From: Pirellulaceae bacterium
GTDB taxonomy: Bacteria > Planctomycetota > Planctomycetia > Pirellulales > Pirellulaceae
Assembly (NCBI GenBank): GCA_026004795.1
Contig: BPJV01000002.1
Coordinates: forward strand, 310,001 to 374,000
Reading direction: 5' to 3'
DNA: 64,000 nt
Shown here: in pieces, positions 25,727 through 49,670 of the stretch
Layout: every line of letters starts with the position of its first letter
Position numbering within the stretch: the first letter of the stretch is position 1
Notes under the pieces: model-generated
Database searches by the model: none
Seen by the model: the letters and a program-made list of their open reading frames with translations, nothing else
Told to the model about the DNA's origin: nothing
Made by a program: the position numbers and the translations under genes

Positions 25727-26018
25727 TAGATGGAGCCTGTTGAATTGCGTCGAATCGCTCGCCCCACTTGTTCTTTTATTAAACTCGCATTAGTGCGCCC
25801 TATGACACTCCATCAGGCATACTCGTACCGCGAATGCGGCGCGCACGATGAGAGAATCTTGTTTTGGCGTATTGGCGATCGCGCTGTGACCGCGTACGAC
25901 CGTGATGTTAATTGGAGTCGAGGGGGGCGTGTGCTGAGGAAAGGAGGGGACCACATATATCCTAAGATCTCATCAAGTTGTGACGTGACGATACGGGGAT
26001 GTGCCAAGGGAAGAAGCG

Positions 26019-27310
26019 ATGCAGAATCATCCTAAAGATCCGTGGTACGAAATCGAAGAGGGTGACGAACGGATAACGCTCCGATTTTGCAAGCCGGAGT
26101 GTGGTTTCTGGACACCGGCGATTCTCAATGCATTTCCGCTTCCGGACTTCCCCGCCGAGAAACCCGTCGCGATCGAGGGACGGGCGGCGGTGTGGATGTA
26201 CGCGCACGCTGGCGCGCATCTGGCCCACCAGGGCGTCGAACTATGCCGTTTGCAAAACGCCACCTCAACGAGCACCGGTGGAGACCTGTCCCGGTGCATT
26301 AACGAGTTCAAGGTCGCGGAGAATGACCGCATCGCTTTGATCACAATGGACTGGGATACGCCGGCCACCCTAAGCGACGAAGATCAGGAAACGTTGGTCG
26401 ACCAACTGGCCCAACGTGCGGCAGATCATCCCACCAGGCCGGTCCTCTTAATCACTGGAAAAGCCGAGTGTCACCGCGTATGCGCGTCTAGCTTATCTGC
26501 TCGTGCGGCGCGGATATCGATCCTTGGTTCTCGTCACTCCTCGTACAGGGCCTATCGTGATTTGGCGATCGGCTGAGGACGCGGACACGCTGGGGGCGAT
26601 GGTCGATCTGGAAGTTGGGCCAGGCACAATCGGCTCATTGCGACTTGGGAAACCAGGAATTCTGCTGGGAATCGTCGGTGATCCGAACTGCGGAAAATCG
26701 GTCCTCTCCCGGCTTCTTGACACGTACCGTGCGATTCGCCGAGAACGCGGTTGGCTGCTGGATTGCGACGCCGCTGCGCCGACGCCGCGATGGTATTTCG
26801 ATCCTCGGCACCCGGAAGTCGCCGACGTGCTGCGGCAGGAGGCCAAGGACGCCTTGGACGGCTGAGCTGGAAAGGCAAGTCGGCCAGCAGATGCAGTGGT
26901 GCAGGCGGTTCCTTCCGATCACGATCACGGACATGCCCGGAGGCGATCACCGCGTCGATCCTCCGCAGCGGATCCCACCTGGCCGCGAGTGCATGTTCGA
27001 GCCGCTAGACCGGATCATCCTGGTGCAACGCCACGGGAGTCCCTCCGCGCACCTGTGGTTGGAGGAACTGCAGCGGGCGAGCATCCGCGCGCCGATCGCG
27101 GCGATCGTCTCCAGTCGCGATCCCACCGCGCCGCCTCGGATCGAACTCGCGACGGATCAACTCGCTGGGCGGACCTGTTGGCGCGCGGTCATCGATGGCT
27201 TGGACCGCAAGAACGATCTGCTGGCGTTTGCCCAGGCGGTGGAACCGGAGCTGAAGACGCTATGGAATGCGGTTCTGCGGGCCTCCGGCGATCAGGCCAA
27301 CCATAAGTAG
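26019..27310 (+). pseudogene. csx3: Frameshifted Csx3-like ring nuclease / P-loop ATPase fusion
   Basis: Three reading frames join into one ~429-residue protein if two single-base insertions are removed: one A in the AAAA run at 26459-26462 and one T in GCCTTGG near 26851-26856. The repaired chain opens with a Csx3-like segment (PVAIEGRAAVWMYAHAGAHL). It continues with a second, similar half (ITGKPSVTAYARLAYLLVRR, then TPRTGPIVIW), and ends in a P-loop domain with Walker A GDPNCGKS and a later IILVQRH strand. Csx3 (Crn3) degrades cyclic tetra-adenylate made by Cas10, and Csx3-ATPase fusions are known. The start at 26019 follows AAGGGA. As the sequence stands only the first ~148 residues would be made correctly, so the gene is either inactivated or carries two homopolymer sequencing errors. 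Confidence 0.75.
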
Positions 27311-27513
27311 CCGCAGTACCAGAACCGACAGCGGAGTTGGTGATTTCTAGAATTACTCATTGCGCCGCAAAGAAATAGTGACAGTATCGCAAACCCAATG
27401 CAAAGGACGATTCGATCTGCTAAGCTAGTGATTTTCAGCCCGATGGCTCTCGATGTCCCGGGCCCACGCGTGCCGTGTCCAGCGTGCACGCGCTGTAGGC
27501 CGCAGAGAGATTC

Positions 27514-28953
27514 ATGATTCCGGAGTGCACCACGATGGCGTTGACGGACATGTTCAATGCGGAGCAGGTAGAAGCGGCCATTAAGGCGGCGCGCACCTAT
27601 CACCAACTCCAGATTGCTCCAACCGATTCAACCGCTTGTTCCAGCGCCTCAGTGTCGCAACTCCACGACGCCAAAAACAATTACGATGCTTTGTTCAACG
27701 AATTGGACCCATCTCTCCGGTCGATTGCCCGTCTCGCGACGCGCGAGTGGAAAGGTTCGCGGGACGAATCCCTGGAAGACGAGGTCGCCGCGCTGGTCTC
27801 CGAAAGAGTTTACTTCAAATTGCATCGATTCGAGGGGGACTCTCGAAAGCTGGTAGCGTGGGTGATGAGGATCGCGCGAAACTGTTGTGTGGATATCGCG
27901 CGATCCGGCGCACGGTCTCCAGTAACATTTACGGACCTGGTAGCTACCTATGAGGACCACGGTTGTAGTGGAGAGGTGCCGGATTCCGATCGACTCACCG
28001 CTGGAAATGCCCAAGGCGGCAAAGCAGGAATTGACATCCATAACGAAACAGCCCCCGCTGGTTTGCCGTTCCTCGCCTCGTCCGATCCTCATGCCCACTG
28101 GCAATCCTCGGTTTACACCTCACCGGTAGGCCGTACGATTCAGGTGCGCGAACTTGAAACGCAGGTGAATGCGTTTCTCGCTGGTTCCATGCCCCAAGAA
28201 TTTGCGACGCGAGCCGTCTTCATTTATGCTCTGGGCCTATGGCCCTTGGCGTCCGCAGTACACCAACAGCGGTGGGGAGACACGTGCAGTCAATGGCCGC
28301 TCTTGGTGCACGATTCCGGAGACGCACTCAGCCGACTGAGCCACGCTCTCCACCTGCTGCAAGAAGCCCAGCTGGCTGGGGCTTGGAAGGAAGAAGACTG
28401 TGAGGGGCTGGATAGGCAGCAATCAGCCGTGAACACGATCGACTGGGACTGGGAACTCGAGGTGCTCGAACAAACCCAGAACCGCCTGCGGCAGCGCATC
28501 AGCCACGCCCTGCGCCGCAACCTATGGAGTTGTCTCCTCGCGTCAGAAATCTGGAATTGGATCTTGCGGTTCGTCCCCGCAGTCCCGGACGAATCGTTCG
28601 GCAATGCCGTCCCCGATCAGCAGCAGATGCAGCAGATTCTCTTGCTCGATGGATGGGTCGGTCTAGCCAGCGCCGAACGATGGCAAAAGTGGATGGAATG
28701 CCACGGTCTCGAGAATTCGGCCCGCGCCAACTTTATCGATTTGTTCTCCGTCTCGCCGCTCGAGGGGAAAGGTCATGTGAACAAGCGAAAACTTGACAAG
28801 ATCCAGAAGTGGTTTCGAGCTTCCACGCCGTTGGCGACCGACTCCGATTCAGAAGCGTCGCGCGAAGGACTTCCCACAGATGCTTTTCGCCAGCTTTTGC
28901 AAACCGGCCTCAAGAATCGAAGCAACGTCGACATCCCCGTCCCGTTTCGTTAA
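27514..28953 (+). CDS. Sigma-70 region 2-like protein, CRISPR-associated
   Basis: The 479-residue protein has, at residues ~58-132, a segment with the sigma-70/ECF region 2 pattern: ALFNELDPSLRSIARLA, then SLEDEVAALVSERVYFKLHR, FEGDSRKLVAWVMRIARNCC and VDIARSG. The last part corresponds to the core-RNA-polymerase and -10 recognition helix, in the form W-x-x-x-I-A-x-N-x-x-x-D-x-x-R. The rest is longer than normal ECF factors. VRELETQVNAFL..FATRAVFIYALGLWPLASAV could be a diverged region 4, and the C-terminal ~200 residues match nothing I know. The ATG start follows GAGAGATTC. It is the first gene of a plus-strand run that includes the Lon-CARF protease and cas6, pointing to a transcription factor released by CRISPR signalling. 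Confidence 0.72.
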   Translation: MIPECTTMALTDMFNAEQVEAAIKAARTYHQLQIAPTDSTACSSASVSQLHDAKNNYDALFNELDPSLRSIARLATREWKGSRDESLEDEVAALVSERVYFKLHRFEGDSRKLVAWVMRIARNCCVDIARSGARSPVTFTDLVATYEDHGCSGEVPDSDRLTAGNAQGGKAGIDIHNETAPAGLPFLASSDPHAHWQSSVYTSPVGRTIQVRELETQVNAFLAGSMPQEFATRAVFIYALGLWPLASAVHQQRWGDTCSQWPLLVHDSGDALSRLSHALHLLQEAQLAGAWKEEDCEGLDRQQSAVNTIDWDWELEVLEQTQNRLRQRISHALRRNLWSCLLASEIWNWILRFVPAVPDESFGNAVPDQQQMQQILLLDGWVGLASAERWQKWMECHGLENSARANFIDLFSVSPLEGKGHVNKRKLDKIQKWFRASTPLATDSDSEASREGLPTDAFRQLLQTGLKNRSNVDIPVPFR

Positions 28954-28970
28954 TCGCAAGTGAAAGGCCA

Positions 28971-29762
28971 ATGGAACCACATATCCCTGATCATGTGCTG
29001 ATCCATATCGTAGCGAGGCACGCCTGTAAAGAAAACGAACCATGGGAGCGGATTGTCCCCAAGGAGTGTGTGAGAGTATATCGCGAAGCCGATTGCGAAT
29101 GGCAGAATGAAATCGAGCGTTCCCATGGTTGCAGCGACTACGAGGCATGGTGTCGTCTGGTGCCTCGAGCATTTCGCCAACCTTTAAAGGCCGCACTGAT
29201 CGAGCAGGTTCGAATGGGTCAGGATCGGCCTATGTACATCGAGAGCACGGAGCCCAGCCGATGCCGACGGTCACGATCCCGTTCTATAATAGGACCTGCA
29301 GGACTTCTGTTGTTCACTAAGGTTTTTTACAGAAAGACCCATGCAAAACAGCCCTCGCAACGCTTATCCACCGCGTATTTTGTTGTTCATAAGTACCAGC
29401 GTGCAACTTGGAGGACGGCGGCGCGAAGACTATTGAACCGCTATTGTCGATGTAAAGTTACCAAAGGTTTCGTAGTACCGAGCCCCGACGACATCAAAGG
29501 GTATACGGGCGACATTAAAGGAGAAAAACGTCGCGTTGAAGCTTACGAGATCGAAGTTAACACGCCGGAAACCTTCGGAATTTCGCGGGAGCGTGTCATC
29601 AGGCCCAGTCGACATACGTTCCCTAATTGGCCGGAAGCCCGAAAGTGGGAAACGGTTTTAAACGGGCTCTCGCAGATTTTGCTCTGCTGCCATCGTGTCG
29701 TCGCAGCAGCACCAACTCCACACCTCCCCCACGATTGGGTATCGCTTGTTTCAGGAAGCTGA
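28971..29762 (+). CDS. Unknown protein in the sigma/Lon-CARF cluster
   Basis: The start lies 17 bases after the sigma-like gene. The N-terminal ~95 residues are charged and helical with spaced cysteines (HACKEN, KECVRV, EADCEWQ, HGCSDYEAWCRL). After residue ~100 the composition changes to Arg/Ser-rich and the DNA becomes less GC-rich, so the C-terminal two thirds (RCRRSRSRSIIGPAG and onward) may not be real coding sequence, although no stop interrupts it until 29762. No domain is recognised. By position it is one candidate for the protein that holds the sigma-like factor inactive. Confidence 0.5.
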   Translation: MEPHIPDHVLIHIVARHACKENEPWERIVPKECVRVYREADCEWQNEIERSHGCSDYEAWCRLVPRAFRQPLKAALIEQVRMGQDRPMYIESTEPSRCRRSRSRSIIGPAGLLLFTKVFYRKTHAKQPSQRLSTAYFVVHKYQRATWRTAARRLLNRYCRCKVTKGFVVPSPDDIKGYTGDIKGEKRRVEAYEIEVNTPETFGISRERVIRPSRHTFPNWPEARKWETVLNGLSQILLCCHRVVAAAPTPHLPHDWVSLVSGS

Positions 29763-29790
29763 TAGTTCACTGCAAGTGCGAGACTGAGCC

Positions 29791-30807
29791 ATGATGACGG
29801 AACGACTGACGATCGACGAGCGATGGGGGCTGCTGGAGCGTCTTACGACCGCTGCAGAGATTCTCCAGGGTACCGACATCGCTCAACACGACGAGCTAGC
29901 GGTCGAAGCCGCGCTTGAATGGATCGTCGTTCGTAGCCTGGCAGACTTGTTTCAGTACCATCGACCGGAGGAATTCCGAGAATTGGAAGAACGGCTGGAC
30001 CATGCTGATCCAAACAGGCGCAGGGAGTGGCACCGCTGGGCCCTCCTCGAAGCCATGCGCGGCGCGCGTGTGGCGCTTCGCAACTGCCAAAATCTTGACC
30101 GGGCCATCGATGGCGCGGTGATCGACGAGGAAGCTGAAGACATTGCAGTTTCCCTTCTAGAGCTGCGGCTCGAACTGTTTGCGATCGAAAACCAGTTACG
30201 ATCCGAGCGCGATCGCATGGATTCCCCTGCCGATTGGCAGGAACTCTTCCCGTTGCTTCAAGACCTCATCGGTTGGCTCGATGAGGAAATCGACCGGTGG
30301 GCCAATGACCTGTGCGTGGCGGACGATACTTTTTGGATTACGAACCTGCGGAGCGACTTGAAAGCGGACGCGTGGCAACCGCGGCCATGGTGGCTGACCG
30401 ACGAAATCGAATCGCTACGCATCGAACGGCGGGTGTGGCAGCAAACCATTGATGAACGGCTCAATCGCATCACGGGTCAGTGGCGCGTCGTGGAAGAGAG
30501 ATTTGACTTGCTGCCCGATGTGAGCGTTGAAGAATTCCAGCCTGTCGAAGGCCATGCCGAATTGGCACTGGCCGCCGATACAGGCGAAGCACTGCCGGAA
30601 ACTCCGATCCTCGTGCTGGAACGCGAGATGCCGACGGCACCTTGGCGGCAAACAACGGCGGGGAAGTTGGACCAAGGTACTTTTACCCAGCGATTGTATT
30701 TCGAGACGTCGAATCCGGACGGTGTGACTGAACAACGGCTTGACATCGTCGTCGAGGTCTTCATGCCTCGAGATGCTTTCCCCCGATTCAGCTTCCGCCG
30801 CCGATGA
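29791..30807 (+). CDS. Unknown helical protein in the sigma/Lon-CARF cluster
   Basis: The 338 residues are acidic and strongly helical in residues 1-235, rich in Glu, Leu, Arg and Trp (for example LERLTTAAEILQG, EEDIAVSLLELRLELFAIE and LLQDLIGWLDEEIDRW). A shorter beta-rich tail follows (TQRLYFETSNPDGVTEQRLD, ending in basic FSFRRR). There is no signal peptide or membrane segment, and no family I recognise. It lies between the sigma-like gene and the Lon-CARF gene with spacings of 28 and 22 bases, which suggests one transcript. Size, acidity and position make it my preferred candidate for an anti-sigma or protease-substrate role, by analogy with CalpT; there is no sequence evidence for that. 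Confidence 0.7.
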   Translation: MMTERLTIDERWGLLERLTTAAEILQGTDIAQHDELAVEAALEWIVVRSLADLFQYHRPEEFRELEERLDHADPNRRREWHRWALLEAMRGARVALRNCQNLDRAIDGAVIDEEAEDIAVSLLELRLELFAIENQLRSERDRMDSPADWQELFPLLQDLIGWLDEEIDRWANDLCVADDTFWITNLRSDLKADAWQPRPWWLTDEIESLRIERRVWQQTIDERLNRITGQWRVVEERFDLLPDVSVEEFQPVEGHAELALAADTGEALPETPILVLEREMPTAPWRQTTAGKLDQGTFTQRLYFETSNPDGVTEQRLDIVVEVFMPRDAFPRFSFRRR

Positions 30808-30829
30808 AACCAATAATCGAGAGGTAGAG

Positions 30830-31030
30830 ATGTCGTTCCTTGTTCGGTGTGGGCGGGCGGCCACCGAAATAACCGTGCTTGGTAGGCTGGAGGCCCTACC
30901 AGGTCCCATTCGGTTGATCGGCCGCAAACGGCAAGTTCTTGATCCGACCCGCATCCTTGCATTGCGGGACGCGTACCGCGAGACTGGGAATGAAGCGTGG
31001 AATCTGGTTCGTCTGACGCGGCTGCGATGA
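30830..31030 (+). CDS. Small basic protein, unknown
   Basis: The 66 residues start at MSFLVRCGRAATEITV. The start is preceded by GAGAGGTAG, a fair ribosome-binding site, and lies 22 bases past the preceding stop. The protein is basic, with LGRLEALPGPIRLIGRKRQV followed by a helix RILALRDAYRETGNEAW. No family is recognised. It ends 163 bases before the Lon-CARF gene. Confidence 0.55.
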   Translation: MSFLVRCGRAATEITVLGRLEALPGPIRLIGRKRQVLDPTRILALRDAYRETGNEAWNLVRLTRLR

Positions 31031-31193
31031 ATCGGTCGGGCACCGACGAATAGGATCACGTCGGACGCATGTGAAAACTGCTGATGCTTCTCCGGCGAAG
31101 CATCTGGAACGGGCGAAAATGGAACAACAGCCCGCTCGCAAAGCAACATGTTTCCGGAAATCCGCTGCCTCCTGCTAATCTACCGTCATAGCC

Positions 31194-32792
31194 ATGCCGC
31201 ATAACGCTCAAACTTTGGTCGACCAGTTGGAGGAAATCACCACCTGGATCAGCTCTTCCACGCTGCCGAACCGGAGCAGCAGGCAACGATTGGCCCGCAC
31301 CTTTGACGTGCTGGCCTGGTTTCTTCTTCCCGAAGTGCGGCAGCGCGTGCAACACTGGATTCGTGAAGATTACCCCCAATGCTCGGCCGCTGGCGACTTT
31401 CATTTACCAAGCGCAACGGGAGCCTGCGCAGTGCCCGTTACATGGCGGCACCGTTTTGCCACTGCGGCAGCACCAGCAGGGGTTCTGCCACTGCGCTGGG
31501 CTGCAACCAGTCCTCCTGAAGGCAGTATTCCCGACGCGCTTCTGCAATTCTCTCACGTCGTGCGCGATGCGTTGGCCAAGTCGCATGCGTTGAAAGAACG
31601 AGCGGGCGGGAGCATGAAACTCGACCAGTGGCATTTGAATTGGACGGTCGATGCCTGGAGCAATTGGCAACTCGGCGACCTTGCCGTTTCCCCCGAGTCC
31701 GCTTTTGCTCCCTTAGCGATCGGTCTGATCTGCGCCGCGCTGAATATCACACCAGCCGTGGACTTCATCGCTACCGGTCAATGGGACCTTGAAAAGAATC
31801 GGTGGGCGGTAAAGCCCGCGACATTGGAATCCAAACTGAAAGCGGCCTTCGCTCTCGGCTTCCGCAGATTCGTCGTCCCTCCAACGGAAAAGAGTCTGGC
31901 CGAAGACATTTTCCGCGAACTCGAGGAAGACAGTGGAGAACAATCTCAGTGGCTGAGTCTACCCACGCCGCAGACGAAAACCGATCTTGGCGCAGCGCTG
32001 CTGCCCATTCTTCCCATGGCCGGTAGCCAGCCCTCCATGCACGATCGCTTGGAAGATCGAGCCACTTGGTACGACTCGCTCGTGTCCCACGATCAAGCCC
32101 GCGTGTACTTCGAATCCCATATCCTTCCTGACATATCCCATCGAGGGCGTCGCCAGATCGCTGCCGTCGATTCCTGTATTTTGAATCCGGACTCGCTCCT
32201 ATCAATCTACAGCGGCAGCGAAGACCTGTTGTGGCTGACCGCCGTCACATGGACGCCGCGGCGGTTGGTCTACCTCTGCACCGAGGACTTCGCCCCGCGG
32301 TGTGTGCACTTTGTCCAGCGGCTCATGGATCGTTGGCAAGATGTCGTCGCCCGGTGCCGCCACAACTCATCGATCGACGATCAGGAGCAGCGTTGGGCAA
32401 TATCAGTGGCCGCCGGCGAACCATCCTCGGATCCGCCCGAAATCGTCATTAAAAAAGTCGCCAAGGATTCCACCTGTTTGACACAACTGGCTACCCTCCG
32501 CGCATCGTGCCCCGTCCCCAGCGGTCGTTCCTGCGTGATCGATGCCACCCCTGGGCGTCGCGCCATGCAGATCGCGTTGACGGCCAGCACAGAACCGGGG
32601 GACGTAATCTTTTGCTGGTGGCACAGCACCAGTCAGGCGACTCGCCGGCCCGTCCCGTTGGATCTGGAGCCAAACCTGTGGGTCGTCGAACAGGACCGAA
32701 GGCTGCGGCAGCTGAATCCCCCTTCGGCCGTCACGAAATCGTCTCTCTGCCTAGACACGAACTTCCCAGTGTACCATCCGTTTGAACCGTAA
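31194..32792 (+). CDS. Lon-type protease domain fused to a CARF domain
   Basis: In this 532-residue protein, residues ~145-235 show the Lon (S16) proteolytic core without an AAA+ module. VSPESAFAPLAIGLICAAL gives a serine at 169 in the place of Lon's catalytic Ser, and LESKLKAAFALGFRRFVVPP gives lysine 214 in the place of the catalytic Lys. The 45-residue spacing is close to the 43 of E. coli Lon (S679/K722). Residues ~320-500 look like a CARF domain: RLVYLCTEDF, EIVIKKVAKD, then VIDATPGRRAMQIALTAST in the place of the D-x-T-G-G-T-K-x-M motif. CARF domains bind cyclic oligoadenylate, so the protease would be switched on by Cas10 signalling. CalpL has the same logic with a SAVED sensor. It is followed 21 bases later by cas6. 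Confidence 0.78.
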   Translation: MPHNAQTLVDQLEEITTWISSSTLPNRSSRQRLARTFDVLAWFLLPEVRQRVQHWIREDYPQCSAAGDFHLPSATGACAVPVTWRHRFATAAAPAGVLPLRWAATSPPEGSIPDALLQFSHVVRDALAKSHALKERAGGSMKLDQWHLNWTVDAWSNWQLGDLAVSPESAFAPLAIGLICAALNITPAVDFIATGQWDLEKNRWAVKPATLESKLKAAFALGFRRFVVPPTEKSLAEDIFRELEEDSGEQSQWLSLPTPQTKTDLGAALLPILPMAGSQPSMHDRLEDRATWYDSLVSHDQARVYFESHILPDISHRGRRQIAAVDSCILNPDSLLSIYSGSEDLLWLTAVTWTPRRLVYLCTEDFAPRCVHFVQRLMDRWQDVVARCRHNSSIDDQEQRWAISVAAGEPSSDPPEIVIKKVAKDSTCLTQLATLRASCPVPSGRSCVIDATPGRRAMQIALTASTEPGDVIFCWWHSTSQATRRPVPLDLEPNLWVVEQDRRLRQLNPPSAVTKSSLCLDTNFPVYHPFEP

Positions 32793-32813
32793 TCACGTTC
32801 GTCCTGCGAGCCG

Positions 32814-33938
32814 ATGATGGACCCGACCCGATCGATTACAAAACGTTTCACCGACCCGCGTTCGCCAGCCTCGTCCGCTCTGCCGATGCGGATCGTCGTG
32901 GACCGCCTGACCATTCGCGACAACTCGGCACCGCTATCCCCTTGGCTGGGACCATCGCTGCGCGGGCTGTTTTTGCGCGAGCTGCGTGAGACGCTCTGCC
33001 GTTTGCCAATCGAGCGCCGACCGTGGTTGACATCGACCGAACGGCGGTGGTCCGGCGCGGCGGCTCGCTTCGCCGCCAAGAAAGCTGATTCCACCAAAGC
33101 TTACTGTCGCGGCTGTGAGCACATGCTCGATTGCCTGTACGGACGCACCCTGGAACCGGACTTGATTCAACTGGGTCGACCTGTGCACCGCGGTGCACGC
33201 GACGGGCTGCGCGCGCTGTCGGTAGCCGTCGAAGTCGTCGATCCCGCTCGCCGCGGTCACCAACGACTGGTTCGCTGGTTGGCCATCGGTGCCGACGCGC
33301 TGGCCATCCTCGACGCGGCTCGCCAGGCGGCTCGGCAGCAACTGCAAACCGCCGGAATCGGACAGGCGGGAATCGTAGCCAGCCTGTCCGAGCGCCCCTG
33401 TGTCGAACAAGAATTGCGCCTCGAACCGAGCAACCTGACCACCGAATTCGGCCGCGCCGGACAGACAGTGCCCGTGCGCATCGTATTGCAATCGCCGCTA
33501 TTCCTGAAGCGAAAAACCGGCCCGCGTCGTCCACCCGCTGATGTCCGGTTGCCGGGCCAACCGAAGCGGCGTTTCGATACCCAAGCCCGCCGGCCTCCCA
33601 CACCCGGCGAATTGGTGCGGGAAAGCGTCCGGACGGTTCGCCGTGCCATCCAGGAGTACCTCGATCCGCACTGGACGGCGGACCGTGACCTGAGCGATTT
33701 CGTCGCTCGAGCCGATCGAATCGAGCCGTCCCGACAGGATTGGACTCCGTTCCAACACGCCCGCAGCAGCAACCGGCAGCAACGACGATGGGATATGGCC
33801 GGGTGGATGGGTGAAGTGACCGTGGTCGACATGCCCGAATGCTACCTGCCGTGGCTGCACTGGGGTGGCCTGCTGGGCGTCGGCGACAGTCGCAATTGCG
33901 GCGCCGGCCTATGGGGAATCGAACGCCTCGACCGCTGA
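32814..33938 (+). CDS. cas6: Cas6-type CRISPR RNA endoribonuclease
   Basis: The 374 residues fit the Cas6 family of type III systems. The first RAMP fold starts at RIVVDRLTIRDNSAPL and GPSLRGLFLRELRETLCR. A CRGCEHMLDCLYG cysteine cluster follows, then VPVRIVLQSPLFLKRK. The end has SSNRQQRRWDMAGWMGEVTV and the glycine-rich loop HWGGLLGVGDSRNCGAGLWG. Cas6 cuts the array transcript within each repeat, leaving an 8-nt 5' tag. Translation could start at 32814 (ATG-ATG) or at 32886, just before the first RAMP strand. Its opposite strand has a false ORF of almost equal length. The gene ends the plus-strand run 21 bases after the Lon-CARF gene. Confidence 0.85.
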   Translation: MMDPTRSITKRFTDPRSPASSALPMRIVVDRLTIRDNSAPLSPWLGPSLRGLFLRELRETLCRLPIERRPWLTSTERRWSGAAARFAAKKADSTKAYCRGCEHMLDCLYGRTLEPDLIQLGRPVHRGARDGLRALSVAVEVVDPARRGHQRLVRWLAIGADALAILDAARQAARQQLQTAGIGQAGIVASLSERPCVEQELRLEPSNLTTEFGRAGQTVPVRIVLQSPLFLKRKTGPRRPPADVRLPGQPKRRFDTQARRPPTPGELVRESVRTVRRAIQEYLDPHWTADRDLSDFVARADRIEPSRQDWTPFQHARSSNRQQRRWDMAGWMGEVTVVDMPECYLPWLHWGGLLGVGDSRNCGAGLWGIERLDR

Positions 33939-34022
33939 CCCACAGTACCACTGCAGTCCCTGCAGCTCCCCGACAGTACCACTGCGGTCCTTGCAGTCAC
34001 AATCACCCGTCGGACTTTGCGG
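33939..34022 (+). repeat. Short tandem repeat after cas6
   Basis: A ~31-base unit containing ACAGTACCACTGC occurs twice in tandem immediately after the cas6 stop (about 33943-34000). No hairpin or T-tract is evident. Confidence 0.5.
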
Positions 34023-34894: not shown

Positions 34895-34962
34895 TTCCGC
34901 CGCGTAGCGGCTCGATGAGGGTATCGCAGCGTTTTCCGCCGCGTAGCGGCTCGATGAGGGTA
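34895..34962. repeat. 29-bp direct repeat with internal palindrome
   Basis: An identical 29-base unit (starting TTCCGCCGCGTAGCGG and ending GAGGGTA) occurs at 34895-34923 and 34934-34962, 39 bases apart. Each contains the palindrome GCCGCGTAGCGGC. Confidence 0.8.
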
Positions 34963-35191: not shown

Positions 35192-36789
35192 GTTTCAATG
35201 GCCTGTTAATGGCCGAGTGAATTGAGGCTTGTCAGGGACCGCCAAGACGGTTGGGTCCTCGTGTGGGAGTTTCAATGGCCTGTCAATGGCCGAGTGAATT
35301 GAGGCTCTTTGAGCTCGCCGAGGCAGAAGTCCGCTTCCACTTGGGTTTCAATGGCCTGTTAATGGCCGAGTGAATTGAGGCTGGCTCCGCAGGGGGGAGT
35401 GATCTCCCCTGCGGAGCTGCGTTTCAATGGCCTGTTAATGGCCGAGTGAATTGAGGCGAAGACGTTGACACCTGATTAGCGCCGTATTTTGGTTTCAATG
35501 GCCTGTTAATGGCCGAGTGAATTGAGGCTCGTCTGACTGGTCCTTGGTCTGGGACAAGGAGAAAAACAGTTTCAATGGCCTGTTAATGGCCGAGTGAATT
35601 GAGGCGGCTTTTACGCAGAGCCGGTAACCTGGGCCGACGGTCGTTTCAATGGCCTGTTAATGGCCGAGTGAATTGAGGCGAGCTCCTGGAAATCCAGGAG
35701 CGAATGGCCCACATGGTTTCAATGGCCTGTTAATGGCCGAGTGAATTGAGGCCTGGCTTCTCAAACGAGCCGGGTGCAGCGCGATTGTTTCAATGGCCTG
35801 TTAATGGCCGAGTGAATTGAGGCGTACCGCGGAGACTGGGAACATCGGTATCTGTGGGAGTTTCAATGGCCTGTTAATGGCCGAGTGAATTGAGGCGTAC
35901 CGCGGAGACTGGGAACATCGGTATCTGTGGGAGTTTCAATGGCCTGTTAATGGCCGAGTGAATTGAGGCCTACAAAAGGAGATCTATGATGGAGAAGTTT
36001 GTCGAGGTTTCAATGGCCTGTTAATGGCCGAGTGAATTGAGGCTCATTATCTGGGACCAGTCGGCGCGGACGGTCAGGTTTCAATGGCCTGTTAATGGCC
36101 GAGTGAATTGAGGCGCGTCTGACTGGGTCATGGTGTGGGACCAGTCGGGTTTCAATGGCCTGTTAATGGCCGAGTGAATTGAGGCCCGGGTTTTAGACCC
36201 GGACTTTGGCGAGCGTGAAGTTTCAATGGCCTGTTAATGGCCGAGTGAATTGAGGCACGACTTCACGGTCGTCGAGTTCGACCTCACAGGCGTCGTTTCA
36301 ATGGCCTGTTAATGGCCGAGTGAATTGAGGCGCCGGGCTCACCCGGATGATTTCCTCTCCTGCTGCCTGTTTCAATGGCCTGTTAATGGCCGAGTGAATT
36401 GAGGCTCGGTTTCGCCGCCCGTGGTGGGTGGCGGCCGAGCCCGGTTTCAATGGCCTGTTAATGGCCGAGTGAATTGAGGCAGAGGGGGTTAAAGATGTCA
36501 AATATGGCTGAGTTCGTGGCAAAGGGTTTCAATGGCCTGTTAATGGCCGAGTGAATTGAGGCCAGCCGATTGGCTGGACGATTATTTCGGGCCGCATAAG
36601 TATGTTTCAATGGCCTGTTAATGGCCGAGTGAATTGAGGCCTTGCTCCGCCCCAAAAACTTATCGAATCCAAGGCCGCACAGTTTCAATGGCCTGTTAAT
36701 GGCCGAGTGAATTGAGGCGCCGCTCGCCGGTGTTTCCCCTCCCGTTTCGGGAGTTTCAATGGCCTGTTAATGGCCGAGTGAATTGAGGC
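35192..36789 (-). CRISPR. CRISPR array, 22 repeats of 37 bp and 21 spacers
   Basis: On the plus strand each repeat begins GTTTCAATGG and ends GAATTGAGGC. Repeats start at 35192, 35269, 35345, 35421, 35492, 35569, 35643, 35716, 35787, 35860, 35933, 36007, 36078, 36149, 36220, 36295, 36369, 36444, 36526, 36604, 36682 and 36753. Spacers are 34-45 bp. All repeats look identical except that at 35269, with one T-to-C change (CTGTCAATGG). The minus-strand form ends in ATTGAAAC, the usual 8-nt crRNA 5' tag, so transcription is inferred to run leftward from a leader at 36790-36993. The variant repeat is at the leader-distal end, as expected. Two adjacent spacers (35824-35859 and 35897-35932) are identical. 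Confidence 0.97.
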
Positions 36790-36993: not shown

Positions 36994-38082
36994 TCACTCG
37001 TCATCCCGTTCGCGGGCCTGTGCCAGGGCGGCACGCACCCAACGCTTGTGCAGGTAGCTCGCCGCCCGACTGGTCTGATAGGTTACCGACTCTTCGGTCG
37101 AGCGTGCCCACTCCCGAATCAACTCCTCGACCACCAGATCAAAGTTGCCCTGGTGCCAGTGTTGTTCCAGCCACGATGCGACGTGTGGCAACCGCTCGCG
37201 CTGCAAATATACTCCGTCACCGCTCTCGTCAAAATCGGATGGCGCAAGGCGGCCTTGATTGCAGATCGCCAAAACCCAACGGTCGACGACCGGGATTCGC
37301 AGCGGCTCCATCAGGTCGCATGCCATGCCCGCGCGGCCAGGGCGAAACTCGTGCAAAGCCCCCAGGTTTGGCTCGAATCCCGCCGCCTCGATGCGGGCGG
37401 CTACCCGGCGGTAGACGAAGGTGTATCCGAAACTGAGCAACGCATTTACCGGATCGCGGGGCGGACGGCGGTTGCGTCCAGGGAAATGCCACGGATCACG
37501 AAACAGGGCGCCCCATTCCTGGAACCATACGGCGGTGGCCGATCCCTCGATTCCTCGCAAAGCGTCCATCTCGCTCGTGTTCTTCACCGTCTCGGCCCGG
37601 TCGGCCAGGTCTCGCAGCACGCCTTTGGTCAGGCGGTAGCCCTGCCGTTGGTAGTGCCGCAGCGCAGAGATCATCGACTCGATCTTCGATCGGACGACCT
37701 TGCGCGCGACGACCACCTGCCAGCTTCGATCCTCCCACGCCTTGGTCTGGAGCAAGCGGGTGAGCGTCCGTCGAGCGCCGTCGTGAACCAGGCGACCGAG
37801 GATCATGGTCCCTTGTGGCGACAACCAGGTGAGATGGATCCTCAATTCGCTCAACGCGTACAACGCGGCCGCCGATACTTGGACGTCCCCGTAGGCGACG
37901 ATCTCATCGAGCTCCTCGGCGTCGAGCTGAAGTTTACGATTGGCGGCGTTCTCGAAGTGCAACCGGCCTTTCCGTACCGACAGAGATCCGGGACCGACCA
38001 GGTGGGCCGTCCGAACGCGGATTTGCGGAATGAACTCCCCCTGCCTTTCCGGCGACGTGAACATACGGCGAAACAGTTTCAT
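36994..38082 (-). CDS. cas1: CRISPR integrase Cas1
   Basis: The 362-residue protein starts at MKLFRRMFTSPERQGEF; the in-frame extension to 38169 overlaps cas2 and lacks homology. The catalytic metal-binding residues of Cas1 are visible: Glu in LRGIEGSATAVWF, His in PNLGALHEFRPGR and Glu in ACDLMEPLRIPVVD. Cas1 works with Cas2 to insert new spacers at the leader end of the array. The Tyr/Arg-rich PVNALLSFGYTFVYRRV helix is also typical. It lies 49 bases downstream of cas2 on the same strand, directly beside the leader. Confidence 0.97.
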   Translation of the reverse strand: MKLFRRMFTSPERQGEFIPQIRVRTAHLVGPGSLSVRKGRLHFENAANRKLQLDAEELDEIVAYGDVQVSAAALYALSELRIHLTWLSPQGTMILGRLVHDGARRTLTRLLQTKAWEDRSWQVVVARKVVRSKIESMISALRHYQRQGYRLTKGVLRDLADRAETVKNTSEMDALRGIEGSATAVWFQEWGALFRDPWHFPGRNRRPPRDPVNALLSFGYTFVYRRVAARIEAAGFEPNLGALHEFRPGRAGMACDLMEPLRIPVVDRWVLAICNQGRLAPSDFDESGDGVYLQRERLPHVASWLEQHWHQGNFDLVVEELIREWARSTEESVTYQTSRAASYLHKRWVRAALAQARERDDE

Positions 38083-38131
38083 CGATTCGGTTCTCCTGTG
38101 TCTGGGACAGTCGTGTTTTTCAACGGTCGGT

Positions 38132-38473
38132 TCACTCGAGCAACCAGGGTGGATCGGCCAGGTCGTCATCGCGGGCTTCGATCATCGTCCACTCCTGGTC
38201 GGTGAAGACCAGAGCCAGTCCGGTATCGGGCATCGTGTCCCCCGCATCGGCGCGACACGATCGCGTCGACGTACGGATCGGCCAGGCCTGAACGCGATCG
38301 CAGCTCGGATCGATGATCTGCATGACGCCGCGTATGACGCCCTCGAGTTGACGTCGCGTGCCGGTGAACATGAAGACCGATTTCTGGACTCGGCGAGCAT
38401 CGCGTTCCAGTTGTTGGGCCACGCGTTTGAGCCGCTTGGGTTCGCAGATATCGTAGGCAATGATGAAGTTCAT
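38132..38473 (-). CDS. cas2: CRISPR adaptation protein Cas2
   Basis: The 113 residues start at MNFIIAYDICEPKRLKRVAQ with the conserved Asp after the first beta strand, followed by RRVQKSVFMFTGTRRQLEGV, the family's Q-x-S-V-F core. Cas2 forms the dimer that bridges two Cas1 dimers during spacer capture. The C-terminal tail (ARDDDLADPPWLLE) is longer than in minimal Cas2 proteins. The in-frame extension upstream to 38584 is Pro/Arg-rich and rejected. The start lies 147 bases from the end of the IS66 insertion, so the original upstream promoter or operon link may have been cut. Confidence 0.95.
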   Translation of the reverse strand: MNFIIAYDICEPKRLKRVAQQLERDARRVQKSVFMFTGTRRQLEGVIRGVMQIIDPSCDRVQAWPIRTSTRSCRADAGDTMPDTGLALVFTDQEWTMIEARDDDLADPPWLLE

Positions 38474-43103: not shown

Positions 43104-44213
43104 TCAAAGAGTTGGTTTTAATTGGCGTTTTTCATGAACGGGAAGTTGTTTGTCGTCCTGAAACCACTGATAAGTCGGGTAATTAACCGGACGGCGGGGG
43201 TCATCGGGCGTGTAGATCATCATCGCTCGGACCTGTTGCATGGTTCTGTCGTTCCGAGCGGCGAACGATGCGATGCGCCGTTTCAGTTCATCCGCGAGGG
43301 TATCACCTTCGAGGCTGGTAGCTGAATCTCGGCCGCGGTAGCGGTCGGCGGGATTGGTGCGGATCGTCATTTTTTCAATGGCGATGTGGGCACTTCCGCC
43401 CCCATGTGGCTTGCAACCGCCCACCTTGTGCCGCATGGGCCCCGAGATCGTCATTGGCTCGCGAGCGTTCGGGCCGAGAGCGTCCTTGCTGAGCGTGACG
43501 GTGACGTTGTCCTCCAGGGCCAGGCAATACAGCAGAAGGTTCAGCTCATCGTCTCGCAGATTGCGAAAATCGACGGTGAAGGTGAATCGTGTGCCGGGTG
43601 GCGCCGGGCGGTTCTTCGTCGTTTGCGTGATGCCCGCATGGGGGCCGGTCAGGCGATCCGTTTCCGGCACGTGGTGGTAGGCCTTACGCCGCCTCGTGTC
43701 GGGATAAAACGGCGTATGAGACGGCTTAGGTTGGCCTACGGCCACTACCTGCTGAGGCCATTGATTGGGATTGGCCTCCCCGACGAGTTCGGCGTCGCCG
43801 AATTGAACCAGTCCGGCAAATACGTCGCCTTTATTGAGGTAGCCGAACGTGCGAGATGTGATATCGAGCTGCGCCCTGCCGTTGTTTTCTAAGCGTGCAT
43901 GGCGGAGTTGATGATTCGGATCGACGTCCACTTTGGGGAACGGAACGGCCGTGTTGCCGACAATCTCTGCTAACGATCGAATGACGCCTTTCAGCGATGT
44001 GGCGGGTATATATGGTCTCTTGTTCTTCGCGTGCGTGACGAAGTTGCCGCGCCCGTCACCGATGATCAGTGGCGTCAACGCCGTCAGCGTGCAGTGAATC
44101 CGGCCGGACAGGCCTGCCATGCAGTGATGATAGAGCGGCTCGGCGTGCGTCGGGGGCTGGTCAGGAACTTGGATCCAGCGGTAAGGATTCCAAAAATTTT
44201 CACCTTGGGGCAT
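43104..44213 (-). CDS. Type III RAMP-superfamily protein (TIGR03986-like)
   Basis: The 369 residues open with FWNPYRWIQVP, the N-terminal signature of this large RAMP family, followed by the RAMP fold: GRIHCTLTALTPLIIGDG, then the G-rich loop context IPATSLKGVIRSLAEIVGNT. TFGYLNKGDVFAGLVQFGDAEL and GTRFTFTVDFRNLRDDELNLLLYCLAL continue the fold. The family belongs to type III effector complexes, where RAMP subunits build the backbone around the crRNA. It overlaps the csx19-like stop by one base (TAATG), so the two are co-translated. It is the last gene of the tightly packed effector operon. Confidence 0.85.
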   Translation of the reverse strand: MPQGENFWNPYRWIQVPDQPPTHAEPLYHHCMAGLSGRIHCTLTALTPLIIGDGRGNFVTHAKNKRPYIPATSLKGVIRSLAEIVGNTAVPFPKVDVDPNHQLRHARLENNGRAQLDITSRTFGYLNKGDVFAGLVQFGDAELVGEANPNQWPQQVVAVGQPKPSHTPFYPDTRRRKAYHHVPETDRLTGPHAGITQTTKNRPAPPGTRFTFTVDFRNLRDDELNLLLYCLALEDNVTVTLSKDALGPNAREPMTISGPMRHKVGGCKPHGGGSAHIAIEKMTIRTNPADRYRGRDSATSLEGDTLADELKRRIASFAARNDRTMQQVRAMMIYTPDDPRRPVNYPTYQWFQDDKQLPVHEKRQLKPTL

Positions 44214-44821
44214 TATTGGTTCTCCTGATATGGGTGCAGGTCACAATAGCGGATGAATTGGGGGCGACGAGCAGGGTCCTTCCAGTATTCGACTTCCAGC
44301 ACGACGCGCGACGGGTTACCATCGATCGGGTAGCGAAAGCGATGGGGGATCCGCAATTCGATCCACTCGCCTGGCGTTCGCTCCGATTGCTGGCCCCAAA
44401 CCAAATAACGGTCACGGTCCGGTTTAAGGTTCGACAGTTCGTTGGACGCGTCATTCAAACGAGATCCGACCCAATCGACAGAACCGAGAAAAACGCAGCG
44501 GTAGGTTGCATCTCCGCCGGTAGGAAACCGTCGCCAGCGCAGTTCGGCGCTAGGGGCGAAAATGCGTCCGGCGGTGCTACGGGACACAATGGGTTTCGCG
44601 TCGACACGTTGGGCGAGACGACCCGCAGTGTAGAAATGAAGTTGTTCGTTGAGTCCCGGCCACCAATCGAACGACCAGCCATCGGGACACTCGACGAAAC
44701 ACCGCGTCCTTCCGCCGCTGCGCGAACCGGAATCAGACTCCGAGCAGGAAATGGTTTCCTCGGATAAGAGGTTGAGCAATTCGTCGAGAGACAGATCATC
44801 GGATTTGAGGATTCCACTCAT
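44213..44821 (-). CDS. csx19: Csx19-like type III-D protein
   Basis: The 202 residues start at MSGILKSDD, in the ATGA overlap with the preceding RAMP gene. The features are those of the TIGR03984/Csx19 family found with type III-D loci: an LRWRRF segment in the middle, RDRYLVWGQQ, then WIELRIPHRFRYPIDG and a C-terminal VVLEVEYWKDP...FIRYCDL. The role in the complex is not known. It overlaps both neighbours, so its amounts are probably tied to theirs. The presence of this gene plus Csx10 is the main basis for the III-D assignment. Confidence 0.72.
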   Translation of the reverse strand: MSGILKSDDLSLDELLNLLSEETISCSESDSGSRSGGRTRCFVECPDGWSFDWWPGLNEQLHFYTAGRLAQRVDAKPIVSRSTAGRIFAPSAELRWRRFPTGGDATYRCVFLGSVDWVGSRLNDASNELSNLKPDRDRYLVWGQQSERTPGEWIELRIPHRFRYPIDGNPSRVVLEVEYWKDPARRPQFIRYCDLHPYQENQ

Positions 44822-45780
44822 GCGTTCGCCTCCTCGCGATTGCGGTTGGAGACGTCTCCCTTCGGTCCGCCATGCCAATTGAGGAATTGTTCGAACGATG
44901 GGGCTAGCGGCGACAGGCGTTCGGTCCAATCGGACGTCAGATCGAAGACCGAGCGCAGGCCTCGGCGCGATCCGCCGGCAAGTTGGATCGGCGAATCCGG
45001 TGACCAGTCGTGCAACTGGTATTGCGTCTTTTCCTCGTCGGTGGCGAAATCGAACAGTCCCGCGACATGTTCGGTTCTTGGGACGTAACTGAGGTTGTAT
45101 TTAGTAACCGAACCCTTAACCCGTCCAAGTCCGCGGCTGCGTCCGGAACCGACGGAGATCAACTCGTCCTGCAGGTCGAGCAGCAGAATATTGAGAGCGG
45201 CAAGCTGCCAGAGTTCGAAGTTCAAGACTCGCACATGCGTTCGGAACTTTCCACCGGTGAGGGCCTGCAAGTCGAAAAGCACTCCTGAGACGGTTCCACC
45301 AGTGAAACGATCGATGCCGACGCCGTTGCGTTGCTCCAACGTGGGTGAGTGGCCTGGCACGGGATACGCATCGCCAATGCTGAACCGACCCCCGAATTTC
45401 AATGATCCGAACATGCGACAGGCCGCGCAGGAGTCGGCATAGGACTCTGAGGACGAATCATTATCGCCTCGTGCGCGGTAACTGCAGCCGTCCGAATTTC
45501 GCTCTGAGTCGACCGGAACTTTGATGTCTCGCCGGCGATCGTAATAGGGAATGCATACACTGGCGGGCTTGAGCGTTCGTGCGATACGTTCCAAATGGCT
45601 ACGCAGCACGCCTTTGAGTGAAGATCCGGGGAAATAGTATTCCCTGTCGCCAGAGCGATAAGTGACGACAGGGACCATATCGGGACCGTCGATGGTCGAA
45701 TAGCCACTTTTGATCAGAATTGGATCGACTGGTTCGAGTTCCAATTCCACGTCGGCTTGGCAAATGGTTCGGCGTAACAT
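44818..45780 (-). CDS. Cas7-like RAMP subunit (Csm3/Csx7 type)
   Basis: The 320 residues follow the Csm3/Csx7 pattern. They start with ADVELELEPVDPILIKSG, then REYYFPGSSLKGVLRSHLER (the RAMP glycine loop context), a Cys-rich thumb CAACRMFGSLKFGGRFSIGD, GIDRFTGGTVSGVLFDLQAL, and the terminal glycine-rich ISVGSGRSRGLGRVKGS. Cas7 subunits polymerise along the crRNA and, in type III, cut target RNA with a conserved Asp in the first loop. Which Asp would serve here is not clear. The ribosome-binding site AAGGAG precedes the ATG. Confidence 0.9.
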   Translation of the reverse strand: MLRRTICQADVELELEPVDPILIKSGYSTIDGPDMVPVVTYRSGDREYYFPGSSLKGVLRSHLERIARTLKPASVCIPYYDRRRDIKVPVDSERNSDGCSYRARGDNDSSSESYADSCAACRMFGSLKFGGRFSIGDAYPVPGHSPTLEQRNGVGIDRFTGGTVSGVLFDLQALTGGKFRTHVRVLNFELWQLAALNILLLDLQDELISVGSGRSRGLGRVKGSVTKYNLSYVPRTEHVAGLFDFATDEEKTQYQLHDWSPDSPIQLAGGSRRGLRSVFDLTSDWTERLSPLAPSFEQFLNWHGGPKGDVSNRNREEANA

Positions 45781-45824
45781 CGGGTTTTTCTCCTTCCTAA
45801 AGGGCGTGAGTTGTTTTGTGGCGA

Positions 45825-46664
45825 TCAGGTAGATTGCGTGCTGACGGCGGATTCGATCTTGGAGGAGAAGAACTCTTCCCAGTTGCCGAGGTCTGTCAGG
45901 CGATCTTCAGCGGTGCGATTGGTTAGAAACTGGATCCGCTGATTAGGATCGGAAAGATCGACGCCGCGGATGCAAACGTCTTCAAGATGGAACCGACCGA
46001 GTCCACGACTGGTAAAACCGCCGACCGTGCTGCCGCTGGACCATTCAAAAATCGCCGCACCCAGCAGCGCGAGGTCCGCGTCCGAGTAGTTCTCGACATC
46101 GATCGTCACGCGGAATCGACTTCCCGGCGGTACAACCTCGTAGTCGTATTTCAAGCCGTCCACAGCGGTTTGGCTGTCGCGATCGATTACGACGCCGTCG
46201 CGTACTTGTATTACCTCGGCCCAATCTTCGATTGTTCCGTCGCTGATACGAAGGCGACCGGCCATTACCGGCGAGCCATACAGCTTGCAGACGTCACACG
46301 TGTGCTTTTCGATCCACTCCAAACGTTCCGCGACGCCCGCTTGTGATGCTTTCCGATAATCTTCGCGCACCCTGCGGTAATACTGCACATCGGAGGAACA
46401 TTCGCAGTTTGACACGGCGCTATCGAGCATGCACGCCGAGAGGCCCAGTGCGTGGGCGAGCGTCTCGCAGGTGCTTCGGAGACGCCCCTTCAACGAGGAA
46501 CCGGGAAGCACGGGTTGGCCGGAGGGATCGAGGACGACACCGAGGTCACTCAGCGTTTCGCCCTCTTTTCCGGATCCGATCCGCCACGCGGTATCGAAAT
46601 GAAGTGAAAACTGAATCTGCAGCTTACGCTGCAACTTCGTGTGCCAGTTAATTGCTGAGGTCAT
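45825..46664 (-). CDS. Cas7-like RAMP subunit
   Basis: The 279 residues form another Cas7/Csm3-type subunit: QIQFSLHFDTAWRIGSGKEG, LPGSSLKGRLRSTCETLAH, a long insertion with paired cysteines (NCECSSDVQYY, HTCDVCKLYGSP), GRLRISDG, VVIDRDSQTAVDGLKYDYEV, and GSTVGGFTSRGLGRFHLED at the end. DSQTA occupies the place where related subunits have D-x-x-T-x-x-A. The start has GGAGC upstream and lies 12 bases past the preceding stop. It is one of three Cas7-like subunits in the operon. Confidence 0.9.
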   Translation of the reverse strand: MTSAINWHTKLQRKLQIQFSLHFDTAWRIGSGKEGETLSDLGVVLDPSGQPVLPGSSLKGRLRSTCETLAHALGLSACMLDSAVSNCECSSDVQYYRRVREDYRKASQAGVAERLEWIEKHTCDVCKLYGSPVMAGRLRISDGTIEDWAEVIQVRDGVVIDRDSQTAVDGLKYDYEVVPPGSRFRVTIDVENYSDADLALLGAAIFEWSSGSTVGGFTSRGLGRFHLEDVCIRGVDLSDPNQRIQFLTNRTAEDRLTDLGNWEEFFSSKIESAVSTQST

Positions 46665-46676
46665 CGTTATTGCTCC

Positions 46677-47204
46677 TTAATCGCGGCGGGTCGCTTCTTG
46701 TTTGCCCAGGTGATATAGATAGTGAGTGCAAAAGCGCTGAAAGAAGGTGGGTACGTGTTCCGCGTTCCACGCATCGAGCCACTGCTTTTGTTCGGCCTTG
46801 AGTTTCTTACGCTGTCCACGCTCTTCATTTGTTTTGCAGTCCGCCTTGGCCGGGATATTCGATTCGCGAAGATGCGATGGCATCTGGGCGTCAGCTTCGG
46901 AAGCCGGCGACCAAGGCAACTTGTTTGGTTCACACAAATCGGCCACCAGTTTCCAGAAGGCAGCCTGGGATTCGAGCTTCTGCCGTGAATTACCACCGGC
47001 GGTTTCCATTTTCTTTTCAATTCGCTCGCGCTGGTGATCCGCGAACGACTTAATCGCACCCGGTTGTTGGATCGCGATTTGCCGTAGTCCGTGGATCTGG
47101 CTACGCGTTATTAGTACGCCATGTTCCTCGACATACTCGTCGACAAGCTCGGCGGCCTTCTCCCGATAGGTCATGTCAGACAACTGTTCCAGGATGGTGT
47201 TCAT
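46677..47204 (-). CDS. Cas11-like small subunit, longer paralogue
   Basis: The 175 residues start at MNTILEQLSDMTYREK, in an ATGA overlap with the preceding gene. The helical content and the motifs SQIHGLRQIA near the N-terminus and FCTHYLYHLGKQ near the C-terminus parallel TQIRNLQQMA and VSEYLYQVAQTQ in the upstream gene. Both look like members of the Csm2/Cas11 helical family, whose copies line the belly of type III complexes. The middle holds a charged insertion rich in Lys/Glu/Gln (residues ~65-140). Assignment rests on size, helicity, position and this internal similarity. Confidence 0.65.
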   Translation of the reverse strand: MNTILEQLSDMTYREKAAELVDEYVEEHGVLITRSQIHGLRQIAIQQPGAIKSFADHQRERIEKKMETAGGNSRQKLESQAAFWKLVADLCEPNKLPWSPASEADAQMPSHLRESNIPAKADCKTNEERGQRKKLKAEQKQWLDAWNAEHVPTFFQRFCTHYLYHLGKQEATRRD

Positions 47205-49637: not shown

Positions 49638-49670
49638 GGCTTTAGCTCTGATAGAAATGTTCAAGGAAAA

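Follow-up and report, generated by a model that had tools for sequence, protein, structure and literature searches.

In a 64,000-nucleotide stretch of the genome of a Pirellulaceae bacterium (GCA_026004795.1, contig BPJV01000002.1, positions 310,001-374,000 of the forward strand; hereafter the window), a run of plus-strand genes appears to encode a switch in which cyclic oligoadenylate (cOA) triggers the release of a sigma factor through proteolysis. The run examined here (27514-33938) encodes a sigma-like protein, two proteins that we call p263 and p338, a Lon protease fused to a CARF sensor domain (Lon-CARF) and Cas6 (Table 1). We put the probability of this reading at about 0.58, on the strength of features recognisable in the sequences: protease and sensor domains with a catalytic dyad, a family-level match to sigma region 2, a recurrent gene set, a two-part p338 whose halves have different associations, and a link with Cas10. 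In the proposed mechanism, Cas10, a protein for which cOA synthesis is established when it is of the GGDD kind, would sense viral RNA and make cOA, and binding of cOA by the CARF domain would activate the Ser-Lys protease of the Lon domain. Docked on the beta module at the C-terminus of p338, the activated protease would cut the flexible small-residue linker in front of that module. The cut would detach the helical half at the N-terminus, by which, together with p263, the sigma-like protein would be held, and the sigma-like protein would be free to redirect transcription. An initial annotation of the window had placed the genes where we find them and had seen in them a cOA-controlled protease coupled to a sigma-like factor; the observation is confirmed and the interpretation partly supported, with the core idea strengthened, p338 emerging as the most likely target and the sigma half looking portable.

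The protease gene of the window encodes a Lon-CARF with a Ser-Lys dyad, for which cOA-driven proteolysis is predicted. The match to the PADLOC model CARF_m2--CARF_LON (PDLC01981) spans residues 42-496, with both the Lon and the CARF parts covered. A profile of 37 aligned Lon-CARFs (out of 44 sequences; L040, L042, L044, L078, L083, L101 and L105 were left out as partial, CARF-only or irregular) matched LonB (1z0e, E=8e-11) at positions 157-255 and the CARF domain of Csm6 (5fsh, E=1.7e-15) at positions 275-454; the two folds are thus borne out by profile, rather than by a fold model of the window protein. Among the 60 PDB matches of this profile there is no chain named SAVED or CalpL, a few matches bearing general names only, in agreement with the initial call of CARF rather than SAVED. 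Met1, Trp102, Ser169 and Lys214 (window numbering) are invariant in the 37 sequences, and Asp450 and Gly454, in the predicted CARF motif region, are almost so. The proposed near-Lon spacing of the dyad also stands, since Ser and Lys are 45 residues apart in the window and 41-52 in the family (median 43), compared with 43 in Escherichia coli Lon. The reported lack of an AAA+ domain agrees with Pfam, which gave no match of any kind in the window protein at E<=1, and a loose P-loop pattern in two of the 37 sequences is taken as chance.

A Lon-CARF profile search across the class gave matches in 32 of 397 genomes, 27 of which hold a full-length Lon-CARF; G667, G565, G420 and G621 (partial or CARF-only) were left out, as was G536, one stretch of which duplicates part of the window. 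This stretch (L070) corresponds base for base (17,386/17,386) to window positions 23936-41321, and its contig is binned in a genome of a different family, which reflects either misbinning or a very recent transfer. An earlier search of the phylum with the CARF-Lon model had given rows in 55 of 392 genomes, most with the Lon part only or the CARF part only, from which seven genomes were kept. Forty-eight stretches (47 and the window) were compared, 45 of them with a Lon-CARF match. Leaving out L070 as a duplicate of the window and L042 and L044 as weak matches to the CARF part gives 42 distinct loci, some genomes contributing several, and 39 are assessable for neighbours once L074, L083 and L105, which lie at contig ends, are set aside.

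Counted with profiles that were iterated on these same loci, p338 and a same-strand sigma-like gene each occur at 33 of the 39 loci and p263 at 25; L095 is included in both counts of 33, on the basis of its profile matches (E=1.2e-40 for p338, 5.8e-14 for sigma). The usual order, on one strand, is sigma, p263, p338 and Lon-CARF, the exceptions being L088, L089 and L098, where p263 comes first, and L095, where Lon-CARF does. Seed profiles built from only six to seven loci recovered, at E<=1e-3, p263 at 15 further loci (best 1.5e-19), p338 at 16 (1.7e-34) and sigma at 11 (1e-14). Given that the set recurs in the same-strand order in related genomes, the gene cluster is more than chance; both the coupling to a sigma-like gene and the co-occurrence that the initial annotation had proposed to look for in relatives are found.

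At the genome level, Lon-CARF is associated with Cas10. Cas10 palm matches over the curated cut-off are present in 72 of the 397 genomes, including all 27 with a full-length Lon-CARF versus 44 of 369 others (Fisher p=6e-23, not corrected for relatedness). At a stricter E<1e-8 they are present in 25 of the 27; the Cas10 match of G465 is short and barely at the curated cut-off. Cas10 lies on the same contig within 20 kb of Lon-CARF in 10 of the 27 genomes, and close linkage is not required, since in the complete genome G167 the two are about 60 kb apart. p338 is found in 26 of the 27, including G745, which has two copies.

The homologue of p338 from L036 was modelled with a mean pLDDT (predicted local distance difference test) of 87 and has helices over residues 2-222 and a beta domain over 265-360, separated by residues 240-262, which fall below a pLDDT of 50 and are predicted to form a disordered linker. 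A tract of the form [AS]A[AS], located 11-18 residues before a conserved Trp, occurs in 19 of 28 linkers (L080 was left out as its Trp could not be placed; L092 was kept with its linker trimmed to two residues). Shuffled linkers carried the tract in 4.8 cases on average and none of 5000 shuffles reached 19, a comparison that has to be read knowing that the pattern was picked after viewing the alignment and that the linker sequences are related. This small-residue tract is the candidate cleavage region of p338.

The two halves of p338 differ in the company they keep. A p338 search found the protein in 32 of 387 genomes, namely G536, 25 genomes with Lon-CARF and six without; no full-length Lon-CARF was matched in the six, of which G653 has CARF-only matches and G688 is 65% complete. 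A profile of the linker and beta module was built from 29 of the 32 p338 rows, the window, L041 and L099 being left out of it and of the distance test. Counted by genome with training rows included, the beta module is present in 24 of the 25 Lon-CARF genomes versus one of the six others (p=2e-4), most of the 24 having also supplied the profile. In the fairer comparison, limited to p338 proteins outside the profile, all 10 from Lon-CARF genomes (loci L095 and L109-L117; five genomes) have the module, versus one of six from genomes without Lon-CARF (L118, the others being L106-L108, L119 and L120), with p=0.0014. Four Lon-CARFs (L087, L090, L096 and L097, in G465, G526, G569 and G394) have no adjoining p338 or same-strand sigma gene, and a p338 with the beta module is encoded elsewhere in each of these genomes (G465, L109 and L110; G526, L117; G569, L111 and L112; G394, L113-L115). 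Evolutionary distances, compared over 21-26 loci, show the helical half of p338 correlating with sigma (r=0.67-0.69) and p263 (0.72) and little with its own beta module (0.15-0.18); for whole proteins, p338 correlates with p263 at 0.69, with sigma at 0.63 and with Lon-CARF at 0.41.

Taken as sequence evidence, these patterns make p338 the likely protease substrate and leash, in the position that CalpT has in the Calp system discussed below. The initial annotation had recognised no CalpT; p338 fills this position in the family, with a divergent copy in the window. Of the three cleavage targets it had listed, p338 is favoured because its C-terminal module goes with Lon-CARF even where the two are unlinked, while p263 is less favoured because it follows the sigma module and occurs where no Lon-CARF was found. 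The third, the long C-terminus of the sigma-like protein, was rejected, its extra length being peculiar to the window (479 amino acids, compared with 227-439 at other loci).

Some unlinked copies of p338 have neighbours of their own. At L113:4109-8819, genes that by eye resemble those of a reverse transcriptase, Cas1 and Cas2 come after p338 on the same strand, and downstream of the G600 copy, at L118:6112-7545, there is a 477-amino acid protein with repeated LNGL motifs. In G718, which has no Lon-CARF, the p263-p338 pair is followed at L119:5030-6910 by a 627-amino acid protein that had no PADLOC match and may be another partner. A variant locus in G096 (L040) has a sigma-like gene and a gene for a protein with an HxxxCxxC motif, seen by eye, before Lon-CARF; we take the motif to be of the zinc type (ZAS-like), and the variant offers a hint only.

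Several observations weigh against this account of p338. G600 (L118) has the beta module and no Lon-CARF in the genome. In G521, Lon-CARF is present and a sigma-like gene overlaps it (L101), but no p338 was found. Pairing in trans is unproved for any given pair, because G465, G569 and G394 also hold other Lon-CARFs and because a sigma-like gene (L097:7304-7957, E=1.5e-9) lies about 1 kb from the L097 Lon-CARF, on the other strand. The distances of the beta module correlate weakly with those of CARF (0.28-0.31), barely above sigma (0.19-0.22), and with those of the protease at 0.22-0.26. The module was not detected in the p338 of L041 (E=1.9), and the C-terminus of the zinc-motif protein of L040 matches it marginally (E=0.003); PDB searches of that variant gave no anti-sigma match, leaving the sigma-like and zinc-motif readings unconfirmed. 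Profile searches of PDB gave nothing below E=0.1 for either p338 or p263, and Foldseek with the L036 model of p338 gave nothing at E<=0.001. As neither protein has a significant PDB match, the label of anti-sigma for p338 rests on context. Pfam and PADLOC searches of the p338 and p263 families gave weak matches only, each in one member.

The window copies add to these weak points. Against a profile built without it, the window p338 scored E=0.0044 with a probability of 7.9 over residues 100-205 (hhalign), and 11.6 bits with a bias of 24.8 (HMMER), and the beta-module profile did not detect the module in it. This copy may be decayed, divergent or hit by sequence errors, and the main claim rests on the family. 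The short reading frame between p338 and Lon-CARF was considered as the rest of the beta module and rejected, its match to the p338 profile being at chance level.

The sigma-like protein is the probable output of the switch. Its family profile (without L040) matched the extracytoplasmic function (ECF) sigma factor 2q1z at E=4e-10, and Pfam sigma-70 region 2 was found in 14 of 30 family members at E<=0.01 (best 2.3e-9). The sigma region 2 of the initial annotation is thereby upheld for the family, but not for the window copy taken alone, whose match (residues 78-134, 20.6 bits) stays below the Pfam cut-off of 24. A phmmer search of PDB with this copy gave no match, and against the family profile built without it the copy scored E=7.7e-5 with a probability of 62. 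A further point against a sigma output is that region 4, searched in the 30 members at E<=0.01, was found in none.

p263 is the third conserved part of the sigma module and is also present where no Lon-CARF was found. It could itself be the true effector, a toxin or other enzyme kept inactive in a complex with the helical domain of p338 and freed when cOA drives the cut, with sigma mainly controlling the expression of the set. We consider this unlikely, even though it is the alternative that survives best. p263 co-varies most tightly with the helical half of p338 (the r of 0.72 given above), His33, His37, Gly114 and Trp212 (L036 numbering) are conserved in at least 90% of 25 sequences, and the RelE-family toxins YoeB and YafQ are among very weak Foldseek matches of the L036 model (pLDDT 83). 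However, the YoeB and YafQ matches have E values of about 1 and superpose poorly, and a RelE-like toxin is unsupported, as neither PDB nor the viral models yielded a Foldseek match at E<=0.001. Also, p263 was not found at L072, L081, L084, L095, L100 and L104, where sigma, p338 and Lon-CARF are all retained, whereas of the 33 p338 genes only two (L094 and L102, both at contig ends) have no sigma-like gene next to them.

The sigma half also occurs apart from the protease. In G399, G402 and G688 (L106-L108) the helical domain of p338 starts open frames of 1031, 1258 and 1418-1451 amino acids (the start is uncertain), and sigma and p263 lie immediately upstream of each fusion. The fusion partner is an MrfA-type DEAD helicase in G399 (DEAD 3e-25, MZB 2.5e-9), a DrmD-like SNF2 helicase in G402 (7e-109), where the next gene is sacsin/TmtA-like (2e-55), and a DUF1156/HmaB-like methylase in G688 (1e-46), with an HmaC-like protein (5.5e-81) and a helicase matching DrmD (4e-63) and HmaA (1e-54) as neighbours. 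Seed profiles built without these three loci detected sigma at 8.5e-6 to 1.1e-8, p263 at 3e-8 to 1e-9 and p338 at 1.6e-12 to 6e-18, and the iterated profiles gave no hit in the reversed sequences of the three stretches. G399 and G402, which are 99% and 97% complete, have no Lon-CARF match; the missing Lon-CARF of G688 is weak evidence given the incompleteness of that genome. In all three fusions there is an internal Met close to where the enzyme itself probably starts, so both a fused and a free enzyme are possible.

Since sigma, p263 and the helical domain occur without Lon-CARF and fused to other enzymes, a portable sigma module can be set apart from CRISPR-specific release. In our judgement the odds are about even that sigma, p263 and the helical domain of p338 are a portable transcription-control module that planctomycetes use on unrelated anti-phage systems, each of which would thereby gain a transcriptional output of its own. 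In type III CRISPR genomes the beta module would make the helical domain a substrate of Lon-CARF, sometimes of one encoded elsewhere; in other genomes the helical domain is joined directly to the MrfA-type helicase, the DrmD-like helicase or the HmaB-like methylase, and the action of the enzyme would free sigma. Alternatively, the helical domain may be no inhibitor and may instead act as a connector through which a defence enzyme or protease reaches RNA polymerase with sigma bound, placing defence at sites of transcription; the cut by Lon-CARF would then end or redirect the contact. That the domain is joined to DNA-acting enzymes with no need of a protease speaks for a connector, but the flexible linker and the tie between beta module and Lon-CARF are left unexplained, and we regard it as more doubtful still than p263 being the effector.

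Known systems offer two parallels for sigma release by proteolysis; what is said here of the published work refers to the accessible parts of the papers. In Calp, a type III system, cOA acts through the Lon-SAVED protease CalpL, the anti-sigma CalpT and the ECF sigma CalpS (PMC11229360, PMC11417357, PMC12751052). The set described here resembles it in having a predicted cOA sensor fused to a Lon protease, a Lon domain with a Ser-Lys dyad, a two-part partner, a sigma-like protein and a type III locus. This shared logic (PMC11417357, PMC12751052) could suggest that the set is a Calp member in which SAVED was swapped for CARF, which we find improbable. Membership was rejected because the sensor, over positions 275-454 of the profile, is a CARF matching that of Csm6, with no SAVED or CalpL name among the matches. 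The set differs further in its third conserved protein, p263, and in having parts that also occur unlinked from Lon-CARF. The p338 profile had no significant match to a PDB chain, CalpT itself being outside this comparison, and the adjoining sigma gene has region 2 at the family level while region 4 was not found. The parallel, rather than familial, relation to Calp that the initial annotation entertained is supported.

In the type III-E system, Csx30 consists of two domains and a flexible linker; its N-terminal part binds sigma and its C-terminal part is recognised by Csx29, which cuts it (PMC10028731). This CASP/Craspase system (Csx29, Csx30, Csx31, CASP-sigma) is similar in its two-part linker protein and its extra conserved gene, csx31, but there the trigger is target RNA, acting through Cas7-11, and cleavage is carried out by Csx29 (TPR-CHAT), in contrast to Lon and a III-D locus with separate Csm3-like genes, Csx10, Csx19 and Cas10 here, and no sequence link between the Lon-CARF set and the Csx29/Csx30 system was found. 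By analogy, then, the Lon-CARF set would work like Calp and Csx29/Csx30, with membership shown in neither.

The CARF-Lon fusion has been put forward as a prediction, with suicide suggested as its function (PMC9704534), and Lon proteases are named among effectors (PMC12669027); the window protease is a member of this CARF_m2/CARF-Lon family by profile, and the accessible text of the two papers describes no partner set. The speculation that the protein is an activated, unselective suicide protease (PMC9704534), its neighbours being coincidental or merely regulatory, is the least probable alternative, being at odds with a recurrent set of mostly conserved order and with unlinked beta-module proteins co-resident with Lon-CARF. 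CapK/CapS, a kinase and a transcriptional repressor, form a portable regulator upstream of diverse immune operons (PMC13373217), likewise one regulatory unit with several operons, whereas the unit here is a sigma-like protein and a fused or cleavable holding domain. The arrangement of BREX, where BrxL, a Lon-like protein, has a sigma-helix-turn-helix-like domain (PMC12839542), differs from that of the Lon-CARF set. No description of the Lon-CARF partner set or of a sigma add-on was found in the literature covered, from which papers behind a subscription are missing, among them the original ones on Calp and on CARF classification.

Table 1. Features of the window (positions in window coordinates).
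Feature	Position	Strand	Basis
Sigma-70 region 2-like protein, 479 amino acids	27514..28953	+	Sigma70_r2 E=3.9e-4, below cut-off
p263	28971..29762	+	Family profile without window copy, E=1.5e-7, probability 94
p338	29791..30807	+	Position in conserved set; weak sequence match
66-amino acid reading frame between p338 and Lon-CARF	30830..31030	+	Reading frame only
Lon-CARF protease, 532 amino acids	31194..32792	+	PADLOC CARF_m2--CARF_LON E=4e-65
Lon-CARF codons	Ser169 31698-31700, Lys214 31833-31835, CARF Asp450 32541-32543	+	
Cas6	32814..33938	+	PF10040 E=5.7e-6; PADLOC Cas6 E=7.5e-16
Csx3 ring-nuclease region and P-loop region, three frames	26001..27310	+	Weak Csx3 matches: PADLOC E=5e-5, Pfam 0.004 (below cut-off)
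CRISPR array, 22 copies of a 37-base repeat	35192..36789		
Cas1	36994..38169	-	PF01867 E=3.1e-72
Type III-D effector genes	43104..51287	-	Csm3-like, Csx19, Csm3, Csm3, unknown, Csm2, Csx10, Csm3-like, Cas10
Cas10 with GGDD	49671-51287	-	Cas10 model E=2.4e-68
Csx1/Csm6-type CARF-HEPN effector	51295..52578	-	TIGR02710 E=1.8e-52; Csm6 HEPN E=4e-26

The neighbourhood of the run in the window is that of a type III-D system, as the initial annotation had it. The effector operon matches the models for Cas5_IIId (Csx10, E=1.3e-43), Csx19 (E=4.8e-6) and Cas10, with Csm2 in addition; the GGDD of Cas10 is present and Pfam gave no match to an HD domain in it, and the assignment of Cas6 within the run also proved sound. 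The CRISPR array and cas1 sit between the plus-strand run and the effector operon. Within the array, at 35787-35932, two successive repeat-spacer units of 73 bases each are identical. Three frames at 38712-41510, between cas1/cas2 and the operon, look by eye like an IS66-type insertion, and at 41783-42042 a repeat of about 44 bases is present five times in tandem. Upstream of the sigma gene, the parts of Csx3 are spread over three frames (26001-26576, 26503-26865 and 26615-27310), the weak P-loop matches being in a separate frame from Csx3, so that the gene is apparently broken or its sequence carries indels. Rfam (at the gathering score) and tRNA scans of the window found nothing. Elsewhere in the window's genome (G000:C1, about 806-819 kb; L046, L001) there is another type III locus, also with Cas10 and Cas1, in which the CARF part of the Lon-CARF model has a match at 813.5 kb.

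With p338, CARF-Lon proteases, so far a prediction with no known target in the accessible literature, gain a concrete candidate substrate, together with a candidate cleavage region and a putative sigma output. If true, this would add to Calp and Csx29/Csx30 another CRISPR pathway in which the sensing of a virus leads, by way of proteolysis, to a sigma factor, and the different sensor and leash would argue for convergent evolution of one logic. The question of which genes are switched on by such systems would follow if, as the helicase and methylase fusions suggest, the sigma part serves bacterial immunity as a general add-on.

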